The notes below the pieces were generated by a model that was not told the DNA's origin, did not search any database, and saw nothing but the letters and a program-made list of their open reading frames with translations. The position numbers and the translations under genes were made by a program. Shown one piece after another: positions 3,733-11,235 of a DNA stretch of 39,606 nucleotides; the first letter of the stretch is position 1; each line of letters opens with the position of its first letter. Location: assembly GCA_947454005.1 (NCBI GenBank), contig CANGMH010000005.1:1-39606 (forward strand), in the 5' to 3' direction. The DNA is from Verrucomicrobiota bacterium. Its GTDB lineage: Bacteria; Verrucomicrobiota; Verrucomicrobiia; Limisphaerales; UBA9464.

Positions 3733-7038
<3,306 letters not shown>

Positions 7039-7119
7039 CCGATGGCGGCCGACTCCGTCATGCCCCTCTACCCCGAGGTCGGTGCGGTCGATCCAGCCCC
7101 GCGGGGAGTCCGCGAGGTT

Positions 7120-7277
7120 TTGGACTGCGGCAGTCCTCTGCCGCTTTCGGAGATCAGGTTTGGCTACGAAGGGGCGCAAGCGGCGCAAAGACGCCGATTC
7201 CGATGGCTTTATCTTCTTCGGCCCTCCGCGACTGCTAGCGCTCCGGCCCAAAGCGGCAGAGGACTGCCGCAGTCCAA
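7120..7277. repeat. Palindromic repeat element (REP/MITE-like): 28-bp perfect inverted repeats around a ~102-bp core
   Basis: ttggactgcggcagtcctctgccgcttt (7120-7147) is the exact reverse complement of aaagcggcagaggactgccgcagtccaa (7250-7277). Imperfect complementarity extends outward (ccgcggggagtccgcg vs gcgcgacttcccgcgg). Confidence 0.85.
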
Positions 7278-7327
7278 GACGCTGGCGCGACTTCCCGCGG
7301 CCTGCCCATCGAAGTGAAACTCACGCC

Positions 7328-8077
7328 GTGAACACTCCCGCCCTCTCCGCCGCCGCATCGGGCGCCTTCGGTCCGACGCGTTGGACTCTCGTGCTCGCGG
7401 CCCGGGGCGGGACGCCGGAGGCGCGGGCGGCGCTGGGCGAGCTGTGCGCGGCGTACTGGACGCCGGTGTTCCGTTTCCTCCGTCGCGAAGGGCGCGACGA
7501 GGACGCGGCGCGCGAGCTGACACAGGAGTTCTTCGCCCGGCTGCTCGCCCGCGGCGGCGTGGCCGGAGCGGCGCCGGAGCGCGGACGTTTCCGCTCGTTC
7601 CTGCTCGGCGCGGTGAAGCATTTCCTCGGCGACCTACGCGACCGGGAGAACGCGGCCAAGCGCGGTGGCGGCATGGTGCCGGAATCCCTCGACCACGACA
7701 CCGGCCACGGCACGGCCCCGGGGTTGCAGGTCGCGGATCCGACCTCGGACGTGCCGGATCGTGCGTTCGATCGCGAATGGGCCTTGGCCGTCATGGCGCG
7801 CTCGCTCGGCGCGCTGGAAGCCGAGTTCGCCGCGACGGGCCGCGCCGCGCATTTCACGGCGCTCAAGCCGTGGCTCGTCGGCGACGCGGCGGCGCTCTCG
7901 CAGGCGACCGTCGCCGCCGCTCTCGGGATGAGCGAAGGCGCGGTGAAGGTGGCGATCCATCGGCTGCGCCGACGGTTCCGCGAACTGGTCCGGACCGAGG
8001 TCGCGCAGACGCTGCCCGCAGGGGACGATCTCGACGCCGAGCTGCGCTACCTCATCGAGGTGTTGACTGGTGGTTGA
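7328..8077 (+). CDS. ECF-type RNA polymerase sigma factor (kinase-associated type)
   Basis: TRWTLVLAARGG..., RFLRREGRDEDAARELTQEFFARLL, GRFRSFLLGAVKHFLGDLRDRE, AALGMSEGAVKVAIHRLRRRFRELVR. GTG start inferred (VNTPALSAAASG); upstream ORF sequence is repeat element. Confidence 0.85.
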   Translation: MNTPALSAAASGAFGPTRWTLVLAARGGTPEARAALGELCAAYWTPVFRFLRREGRDEDAARELTQEFFARLLARGGVAGAAPERGRFRSFLLGAVKHFLGDLRDRENAAKRGGGMVPESLDHDTGHGTAPGLQVADPTSDVPDRAFDREWALAVMARSLGALEAEFAATGRAAHFTALKPWLVGDAAALSQATVAAALGMSEGAVKVAIHRLRRRFRELVRTEVAQTLPAGDDLDAELRYLIEVLTGG

Positions 8078-8218: not shown

Positions 8219-9070
8219 TCACGCCTGGGTATCGCGGCGGAGTTTCCGGGCCACACCGAGCAACAAGCAGGCGCCGCCGGCCAGGGCGGCCCATTCCTGC
8301 GGTTCGGGCACGGCGGTGAGGGCCTGGGGCTCGCTGTAGAAGAAGTCGTCCATCGCCACGACGTCGTGGGTCGGGTCGTCGATGTTGCCGGGGCCGAGAG
8401 CGAGGTTGCCCGAGGTGATGCGGACGCTCGTCGCGACCTGTCCTGGATCGAGGGTGAGGCCGAGGAAGGAGAGCCCCTGGTTGTTCACCGGCGCGAACCC
8501 GCTCGCCAGCACGACCCCGCCGGCGCCGATCAGCTCGAGCTTGGTCGTGTTGGCGAGGTCCACGTCCGCGAAGATAGCGCCGAACGCGGTGATGGTCGCG
8601 GCCTGGGAGGTGGTGTTCGGTTGGAAGAACGTGGCCTCGAGGTTGACCGAGCCGACCGCGGCGAAGAGGCGCTGCGGGCTGAACAGGCTGAACTCGGCGA
8701 CGTATCCGGCGTCCACGTTGCCGAACTTCCGCGTGACGCTGGACGCGCTGTTCTCGCTGACTTGGAAGCCGCTGCCGTCGGTGCCGAACACGGCGCCGCG
8801 CCGCGAGGTGGTGTTGAAGAAATCGGCGGGCATGGAGACCGGGAGCGCGGCGGCGTCCCAGTTGATCTCGCGGCGCCCGGTGGCGAGCGTGGTGCCGAGT
8901 GTGTTGTTCGCTCCGTTGTTGGCGCCGCCGATGGCGGTCTTGAAGTCGTTGACCGGCGTGCTCAGCCCGGTGTCGGAGCTGCCGGTGCCGATGCCGGAGA
9001 AGAGCGCGGCCTGGGTGTCGAGAGCGAGAGCCGCGGTGGCCGCGGCGAGGAGGGATCGGGTGTGTTTCAT
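8219..9070 (-). CDS. PEP-CTERM sorting domain-containing secreted protein
   Basis: N-terminal signal MKHTRSLLAAATAALALDTQA; C-terminal AVPEPQEWAALAGGACLLLGVARKLRRDTQA = PEP motif + TM + basic tail. Confidence 0.9.
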   Translation of the reverse strand: MKHTRSLLAAATAALALDTQAALFSGIGTGSSDTGLSTPVNDFKTAIGGANNGANNTLGTTLATGRREINWDAAALPVSMPADFFNTTSRRGAVFGTDGSGFQVSENSASSVTRKFGNVDAGYVAEFSLFSPQRLFAAVGSVNLEATFFQPNTTSQAATITAFGAIFADVDLANTTKLELIGAGGVVLASGFAPVNNQGLSFLGLTLDPGQVATSVRITSGNLALGPGNIDDPTHDVVAMDDFFYSEPQALTAVPEPQEWAALAGGACLLLGVARKLRRDTQA

Positions 9071-9119
9071 GGTATCGGTGGGGAGTGATCCGGCGCGGAC
9101 GGTCTTCGCCCGGTCACGC

Positions 9120-9227
9120 CCGATGACGCCGAGGCGCTGCGCGGCATTACACGGCGCGCGAGGATTCTCCCGGCTTTGGGCGGCGGGAGTTTTCCGGTAA
9201 TGCTCGCCGCGCCTCCGGCGTCATCGG
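9120..9227. promoter_or_regulatory. Long imperfect palindrome interpreted as two divergent ECF-type promoters
   Basis: Arms 9120-9150 and 9197-9227. Plus strand GTAATG (9197-9202) - N16 - CGTCAT (9219-9224); minus strand the same boxes at 9150-9145 and 9128-9123 with the same N16 spacing. Lies between divergent genes at 9070 (-) and 9264/9285 (+). Confidence 0.6.
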
Positions 9228-9284
9228 TCCCGTGGAGAAGGTGACCTGGCCGGACGGCGGCCGATGCCAGAAGAGGGAACGGAC

Positions 9285-9851
9285 ATGACGGCGTGCTTGG
9301 AGCGCGTGCGCGCGGGCGACAACGCCGCGGCGCGCGACCTCGTGGACGCGCTCGCGCCGCTCGTCGGCAAGATCGTCGGCGCCCATCTGCCGTGGCGGCT
9401 CTCGGCGGACGACCTGCGCCAGGAGATCTTCATGAAGGTGTTCGCGCGGTTGGACCAATACGCAGGCGTGGTGCCGTTCGAGCATTGGGTCGCGCGGGTC
9501 GCGCTGAACACCTGCCGCGACCACCAGCGGGGCGAGCAACGTTCGCGCGAGGTGCGTTGGACCGACCTCGGGGAGCAGGAGGCGGCGGTGCTCGAATCCA
9601 TCGCCCACGAGACGGCGGCGCCGGACGCGACCGAAGGCATCGCCGCGCGCGAGCTGGCGGAGCGGTTGCTCGCGACGTTGTCGCCGGACGACCGGCTGGT
9701 GGTGACGATGCTCGACCTGGAGCAGCGCACCGCGGCGGAGGTCCGCGAGTTGACGGGCTGGAGCATCACGGGCATCCGTGTCCGGGCCTTCCGGGCGCGG
9801 CGCAAGCTGCGGAAGCAGATGGAGCAGTTGCAGGAAGGACCCCGACCATGA
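9285..9851 (+). CDS. ECF RNA polymerase sigma factor
   Basis: Region 2-like LSADDLRQEIFMKVFARLDQY...FEHWVARVALNTCRDHQR; region 4-like LSPDDRLVVTMLDLEQRTAAEVRELTGWSITGIRVRAFRARRKLRKQ. ATG 9285 preceded by agaggg; alternative ATG at 9264. Confidence 0.88.
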   Translation: MTACLERVRAGDNAAARDLVDALAPLVGKIVGAHLPWRLSADDLRQEIFMKVFARLDQYAGVVPFEHWVARVALNTCRDHQRGEQRSREVRWTDLGEQEAAVLESIAHETAAPDATEGIAARELAERLLATLSPDDRLVVTMLDLEQRTAAEVRELTGWSITGIRVRAFRARRKLRKQMEQLQEGPRP

Positions 9852-10381
9852 GCGTACGGAAGCCATCTTGGGAGCAGCTCGCCCGCGCCGCGCGGCCGGT
9901 CGCCGCGCGTGCGGAGCCCGTTCCTCCCGCGGATTGGACCGCTGCCGTCGCCGCGAAGGCGATGGCCGGCGCGTCGCTCGGGAAGCCGTCGCTCTGGACC
10001 GTCGTGGCCGCCTGGGCCTCGTCGCCCAAGGTCGGCCTTCCGCTGCTCGCGCTGCTGCTCGCCGGAGGGATGTGGCTCGGGCCGCGGTACCTCGGGAACG
10101 GACCTTCAGCGGAGCAGCGTTCGTCGCTCTGGGCGGAGGCGACGCTCCGCCAGCTCAAGGCGTGGCATCCGATGGAATGCGAGGAGGCCGGTGCCATCGG
10201 CCGATTGCTCCAGCGTCGCGCCTCCGAGCTGACGACCACGACCAACGCCGCGGCCGTGCTGGATTCCATGCGGGACGAGATCGGCCGGTTGCTCACGCCG
10301 CCGGAGCGGGCCGCCTTCGAATCCGAGCAGGCGCGGTTGCGGGCGAGATGGTTCCCCGCCGCGAAAGGGATGACGCCGTGA
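9848..10381 (+). CDS. Small single-pass membrane protein, possible anti-sigma/regulatory partner
   Basis: ATGA overlap with upstream sigma gene; one TM (KVGLPLLALLLAGGMWLGP). No conserved anti-sigma motif recognised. Confidence 0.7.
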   Translation: MSVRKPSWEQLARAARPVAARAEPVPPADWTAAVAAKAMAGASLGKPSLWTVVAAWASSPKVGLPLLALLLAGGMWLGPRYLGNGPSAEQRSSLWAEATLRQLKAWHPMECEEAGAIGRLLQRRASELTTTTNAAAVLDSMRDEIGRLLTPPERAAFESEQARLRARWFPAAKGMTP

Positions 10382-11235
10382 AGGTCCGGTCCGCCGCGCC
10401 CGTTCGCCGGGCCTTCACGCTCATCGAGCTGCTGGTGGTCATCGCCATCATCGCGGTCCTCGCCGGCATGCTGTTGCCCGCGCTCGGTCGGGCCAAGGCG
10501 CAGGCGCAGAAGACCGTGTGCCTCGGCAACACGCGCCAGCTGGCGATCGCCTATCTCCAATACGCCGGCGACCACGACGACCGGTTGCCCGACAACTCCA
10601 CGCCCGCGGGACAACCCGGCCTCGCGGGTCCGGACGCCTGGGTGCAGGGCAACGTGCAGACCTGGACGCCGTTCTACGCGTCGAACCTGTCGGGCAACGC
10701 GCTCCACACCTACGCGCCGGCCGACGGGGTGTGGCGTTGTCCGGCGAGCAAGGCGTTCGTCACCGCGGCCGACGGTCGGCGCGTGCCGCACAACCGCAGC
10801 TACTCGGTCTCGGCCTGGCTCAACTGCAACTCGCTCACCAACTCGATCAAAGGCGCGCCGCCCATCGCTGCGTCGCTGGTCGGAAAGCTCTCCGGCGTCC
10901 GGGCCCCGTCGCGGGTCTTCGTGTGGGCCGAGGAGAACGCGGTGAGCATCGACAACGGCGCCTTCGGCATCCGCGGGCCGGACGAGTTCGCCTGGTTCTG
11001 GCATCTGCCCGCGAGCCGGCACGGGCGCAGCGCCACGTTCGCGTCCGCCGACGGCCACGCCGAAGCGCGCACCTGGACCGGTCCGACCGTCGCCCGGCAG
11101 AACGAGACCGAGTTCAACGCCGACGACACGCGGACGCAGCGGCCGAACCCCGAGGCCAACCCGACGCTCGCCGTGCCGACGCCGCCGCAGGATCCCGACC
11201 GTGTCTGGTTGATGGAGCGGGTGCCCTACGATTGA
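10378..11235 (+). CDS. Type II secretion-type pseudopilin with H-X9-DG motif
   Basis: GTGA overlap with upstream gene; [36 protein letters not shown]-terminal RHGRSATFASADGHAE matches H-X9-DG. Confidence 0.88.
   Translation: MKVRSAAPVRRAFTLIELLVVIAIIAVLAGMLLPALGRAKAQAQKTVCLGNTRQLAIAYLQYAGDHDDRLPDNSTPAGQPGLAGPDAWVQGNVQTWTPFYASNLSGNALHTYAPADGVWRCPASKAFVTAADGRRVPHNRSYSVSAWLNCNSLTNSIKGAPPIAASLVGKLSGVRAPSRVFVWAEENAVSIDNGAFGIRGPDEFAWFWHLPASRHGRSATFASADGHAEARTWTGPTVARQNETEFNADDTRTQRPNPEANPTLAVPTPPQDPDRVWLMERVPYD

Follow-up and report, generated by a model that had tools for sequence, protein, structure and literature searches.

Four genes lie around a divergent gap in the window, by which we mean the whole stretch of 39,606 nucleotides that was analysed. 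On the minus strand, positions 8219..9070 code for a PEP-CTERM-like surface protein of 283 aa, and on the plus strand lie an ECF sigma factor (9264..9851; 195 aa, or 188 aa from the ATG at 9285), a gene for a probable membrane anti-sigma/sensor protein, here called gene 2 (9848..10381; 177 aa), and a gene for a type IV pilin-like protein or pseudopilin with an N-methylation motif (10378..11235; 285 aa; PF07963 and TIGR02532). The beginning of gene 2 and the end of the sigma gene share 4 nt, and the pseudopilin gene likewise overlaps gene 2 by 4 nt. The sigma factor has the ECF/group IV layout, with sigma2 and sigma4 as its only domains and a short linker between them; it matches PF04542 at residues 26-93, PF08281 at residues 130-182 and TIGR02937 with 70 bits (cut-off 42.9), and its solved structural relatives are E. 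coli sigma-E and CnrH. An earlier note on this DNA had called the divergent gene a PEP-CTERM gene, which holds for its layout, as judged by eye (signal peptide, VPEP, hydrophobic helix and basic tail, with VPEP also present in the orthologue), but not for its TIGR02595 score of 14.5 bits, which falls under the 16-bit cut-off. Elsewhere in the window, a Ser/Thr protein kinase gene (3733-7038, plus strand) is followed on the same strand by a second ECF-like sigma at about 7082-8077, which directly adjoins the PEP-CTERM gene and may form a pair with the kinase.

Box pairs in the divergent gap

The sequence GTAATG-N16-CGTCAT occurs on both strands of the gap. The predicted promoter of the sigma operon has its -35 box at 9197..9202 and its -10 box at 9219..9224 (plus strand), while that of the PEP-CTERM gene has its -35 box at 9145..9150 and its -10 box at 9123..9128 (minus strand), all four as exact matches. 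The arms are therefore where the earlier note had placed them, with both box pairs symmetric about 9173.5. Between the arms, 21/31 positions are identical, but the inner part agrees at only 5/23, which is the chance level, so the element consists of two like arms and not of a continuous palindrome. The pattern had no match in 100 dinucleotide-preserving shuffles of the window, and scans for sigma-70-type promoters, terminators and Rfam families gave no finds. With regard to the ECF promoter hallmark, the -10 box CGTCAT fits, but the -35 box GTAATG is without the AAC that the parent family retains in its GTAACC; the AAC-type hallmark is no longer taken to define the ECF family (PMC8103513).

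The gap measures 193 bp, as noted before, if the sigma starts at the ATG at 9264, but not if it starts at the in-frame ATG at 9285, which has a better Shine-Dalgarno sequence (GAGGG) and is equally likely. Leaders of about 30-45 nt were proposed earlier; the predicted sigma leader is about 33 nt from the first ATG but about 54 nt from the later one, and the predicted leader of the PEP-CTERM gene is about 46 nt.

The orthologous locus, the sigma family and the recognition helix

The best relative of the window sigma in the genome collection, 63% identical, is encoded on contig CAIYXO010000870.1 of an uncultured Verrucomicrobia bacterium, a MAG from Lake Loclat (locus L091, the same contig as G030:C870). 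All four genes are found there in the same arrangement, with the PEP-CTERM gene on the minus strand and the sigma, gene 2 and the pseudopilin on the plus strand; the PEP-CTERM proteins are 57% identical and the gene 2 products 48%. Both divergent box pairs are present as well, which settles the question of their conservation at an orthologous locus in favour of the earlier model: GTAATG-N16-CGTCAC is directed toward the sigma and GTAATG-N15-CGTCAC toward the PEP-CTERM gene, both as predicted promoters. Box positions are identical at 22/24, against 56/98 for the remaining positions of 9110-9240 (one-sided Fisher p = 0.0009), and the two differences are the same T-to-C substitution, which affects the final -10 position of both arms. 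The distance between the -35 boxes, however, is 60 nt in the orthologue and 46 nt in the window. Since each box pair is conserved but the mirror geometry is lost, the arms are better read as two promoters than as a single palindromic operator, and the "mirror-image" palindrome of the earlier note, though real in the window, would be a by-product of two promoters.

Strong relatives of the window sigma occur in 140 of the 320 genomes of the order that were searched, and the titles of the close relatives name Limisphaerales and Verrucomicrobia. Most sigmas of this family have GTAACC-N15/16-[C/G]GT[C/T]A upstream, 50-75 nt before their own start, so autoregulation is indicated for the family; the box pair before the window sigma's own gene recurs in the orthologue, and its GTAACC version stands before most relatives. 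In a tree of 78 sigmas, the window sigma and that of L091 form a fully supported group (100/100) that does not include the ordinary copy of G030 (L163). The source genome also has an ordinary copy (C126, L012), which has GTAACC upstream and is absent from the 78-sigma tree, and genus-level relatives at 49-51% identity belong with this copy. Its separate position in the tree, together with an ordinary copy in the same genome that has GTAACC, marks the window sigma as an additional paralogue whose -35 box has changed. Two MAGs, both incomplete (the source genome, G000, and G030), are the only ones in which this GTAATG paralogue was found.

The recognition helix of sigma4 differs along with the box. 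Most relatives read [LV][IV]KVRAFRAR, the window sigma reads GIRVRAFRAR and its orthologue SIRVRAFRAR. Among distinct sigmas with a recognisable box, those with K at this position have GTAACC in 56 cases and another hexamer in 3, whereas those with R have GTAACC once and another hexamer in 6 cases (Fisher p = 6e-6, with relatedness not corrected for); one of the three K exceptions comes from a site picked wrongly at L144, where the box is in fact GTAACC. The other hexamers of the R sigmas are GTAATG (twice), GTAATT, GTAACA, GTAACG and GTAACT, a variety that, together with the single GTAACC, led us to reject a strict rule linking the K-to-R change to GTAATG. On the tree, R arises through about five changes, at least three of them on well-supported branches. 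The K/R residue aligns with the R of TVRSRIFRAR in E. coli sigma-E and, if the residues reported for M. tuberculosis SigH (T179, S182, R183, H185, R186 and R188; PMC6411747) are taken as a guide, seems to correspond to SigH M181, a residue that sets part of the specificity at -31 and -30 and whose substitution loosens it (PMC6411747). Numbered as in SigH, the change from GTAACC to GTAATG alters -30 and -29. With this correspondence, the box and the sigma match in a way that agrees with what is known of ECF structure.

Sites elsewhere in the genome

Scanning the source genome (4.3 Mb in 460 contigs) with a spacing of 15-17 gave three occurrences of the box pattern, two in the gap and the third at C266:3069-3096. 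The mobile repeat that the earlier note had considered would recur at unrelated loci, but the sole site outside the gap precedes another PEP-CTERM gene. This box pair is directed, in the right orientation, at an ORF of 344 aa that starts 15 nt past CGTCAT, ends C-terminally in VPEPGQVGLLLTGLAVLSWTRRGKT and is a PEP-CTERM protein by TIGR02595 (24.5 bits in the genome search; cut-off 16). Third-position G+C marks the ORF as coding from about residue 30 on, and the leader, counted to the ORF start, would be just about 8 nt long. The end of the spacer and the -10 region, CCTCCGGCGTCATCG, are the same in the plus arm of the gap and at C266. Taking some 45 PEP-CTERM candidates for the genome, we estimate that a site placed at random would lie in the 100 nt before one of them, and in the right orientation, with a probability of about 45 x 100 / 8.6 million (5 in 10,000). 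After the C266 gene comes a large surface-protein-like gene (L161, L003), and the pair seems to be conserved in G037 (L227), there with a different sigma gene upstream.

An extended pattern, GTAATGN{13,15}GGCGTCAYCG, matched six times in 50 genomes of the family: three times in the source genome, twice in the orthologous gap of G030 and once in G037, with no match for the reversed pattern used as a control. The G037 site lies inside a long coding frame and was set aside as chance, as was a one-mismatch site on C229 within a miaB-like coding frame; two-mismatch matches in the source genome were taken as background. Beyond these loci, GTAATGN{15,16}CGTCAY occurs at a background of 0-2 per genome in seven genomes.

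The source genome encodes about 40 PEP-CTERM candidates and has five exosortase loci. The boxes lie upstream of only 2/~40 PEP-CTERM genes, those of the window and of C266, and of none of the 5 exosortase loci. A general PEP-CTERM/exosortase regulon was rejected on these counts, as the fetched loci of both kinds held no more sites upstream, and 2/~40 points to a small private circuit instead of one that governs PEP-CTERM genes at large. In other families (G131, G069, G098 and G140), the homologues of the PEP-CTERM protein have no such boxes upstream and no such sigma adjoining them. The self-contained surface regulon of the earlier note is thus kept in part: the pseudopilin shares the operon here and in the orthologue, but the PEP-CTERM and exosortase genes generally stand outside it. 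Five of the PEP-CTERM candidates share one strand of contig C120 and may form a surface-protein cluster.

A candidate circuit and its alternatives

In many relatives, the gene after the sigma encodes a single-helix membrane protein of about 98 aa, and at several of these loci a gene for an LTXXQ/Metal_resist protein is also present nearby. Gene 2 combines the two in one chain: in hhalign comparisons, with a gene 2 profile built from two sequences only, residues 1-56 match the small membrane protein (probability 93%, E 3e-7) and residues 58-168 match the LTXXQ/Metal_resist protein (97%, E 4e-10). That two neighbours of the sigma are joined in a single polypeptide suggests that they work jointly, as CnrY and CnrX do with CnrH (PMC4598750). 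From its position and these remote similarities, gene 2 probably codes for an anti-sigma with its own periplasmic sensor. The zinc anti-sigma motif HxxxCxxC (ZAS class I) is absent from gene 2, which has a single cysteine; as for likeness to CnrY or CnrX, no PDB chain matched at E values up to 1, and a fold search of the PDB with a weak structure model (mean pLDDT 61) returned no relatives.

Taken together, our results make it likely, at a probability of roughly 80%, that the two arms are separate divergent promoters read by the adjacent ECF sigma, which would thereby run a positive loop with PEP-CTERM targets and an anti-sigma, insulated from its paralogue. The sigma would transcribe its own operon, comprising itself, the probable anti-sigma/sensor and the pseudopilin, as well as the divergent PEP-CTERM gene and, away from this locus, at least the PEP-CTERM gene of C266. 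In the resting state, the membrane protein encoded by gene 2, with its N-terminal part in the cytoplasm and its LTXXQ/Spy-like part in the periplasm, would probably sequester the sigma until an envelope signal freed it. The GTAATG box and the changes in the sigma4 helix would insulate the circuit from the parent GTAACC copy in the same genome. The core of this proposal, in which the sigma activates both its own gene and the divergent PEP-CTERM gene, was already part of the earlier note and, as far as comparison of sequences can tell, gains support from the boxes of the orthologue, the C266 site and the promoters of the family. The fuller account, in which a duplicated ECF sigma was rewired to GTAATG by helix changes and runs, with a one-piece anti-sigma/sensor, a private PEP-CTERM and pseudopilin circuit, has somewhat better than even odds in our judgement.

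Among the competing explanations, an unlikely one, and yet the strongest, accepts the promoters but assigns them to a different ECF sigma, such as the parent copy on C126 or the second sigma of the window. Several ECF sigmas are present in the genome, where 11 stretches match the window sigma, and CGTC-type -10 boxes are common to many ECF groups; however, the parent copy is itself preceded by GTAACC, GTAATG with this -10 box appears only alongside the paralogue, in G000 and G030, and the -35 box varies together with the helix of the sigma it accompanies. We give still less weight to the idea that the palindrome is one operator through which a dimeric repressor or activator controls both divergent genes. 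Two symmetric arms in a divergent gap would suit such an operator, but its inner 23 nt are asymmetric, the third copy in the genome consists of one arm, single arms of like design lie upstream of most family sigmas, and the orthologue keeps the box pairs at a different inner distance (60 vs 46 nt) and with one spacer of 15 instead of 16. Chance or a mobile repeat is very improbable: a GC-rich genome does contain many imperfect inverted repeats, but against this stand the 0/100 shuffles, the total of three genomic sites with two of them in the gap, and boxes conserved beside a sigma of only 63% identity. This conservation excludes chance unless L091 is a misassigned near-copy, against which the protein identities of 48-63% speak.

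The preferred reading, of divergent promoters read by the adjacent sigma, has precedents in part. Autoregulated ECF sigmas are common (PMC8103513), and the window shares with them a two-domain sigma, -35 and -10 boxes with a 15-16 nt spacer before its own operon and a neighbouring membrane protein; it differs in having GTAATG in place of the usual AAC-containing box and a divergent PEP-CTERM gene as one predicted target. The CnrH-CnrY-CnrX system of Cupriavidus metallidurans combines an ECF sigma, a small one-helix membrane anti-sigma and a periplasmic sensor, a layout that the relatives of the window sigma resemble with their sigma, one-helix protein and, at several loci, LTXXQ/Metal_resist protein, whereas in the window the partners are joined in one polypeptide and sequence similarity to CnrY or CnrX is not detectable. 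For PEP-CTERM genes, the regulator described so far is sigma-54 with PrsK and PrsR, in Proteobacteria (PMC1569441), with experimental support (PMC9850573); Haft et al. considered their motif confined to Proteobacteria and other regulators still to be found (PMC1569441). Both systems would dedicate an alternative sigma to PEP-CTERM surface protein genes, but the window circuit would use another class of sigma and other boxes, and would reach only a small fraction of these genes.

A full-text literature search, with most subscription journals outside its coverage, returned no ECF sigma linked with PEP-CTERM genes. If true, the circuit would be the first ECF-controlled PEP-CTERM circuit found in the literature searched, as well as a natural example of paralogous sigma factors becoming insulated from each other. 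The locus offers a candidate sigma, boxes and targets for PEP-CTERM control in Verrucomicrobiota, and the GTAACC family, with its natural helix variants, provides a ready set for studying how ECF promoter specificity changes after duplication. Natural variation of the -35 hexamer alongside K/R is seen across the order-wide family (L119-L146, L163-L202). In a paralogous sigma group (L010, L011, L013-L017 and L020), GAAGTAT[C/G]TGTAACC-N16-CGTCA is strongly conserved just downstream of the sigma gene, between it and the next gene, whose promoter it appears to be.
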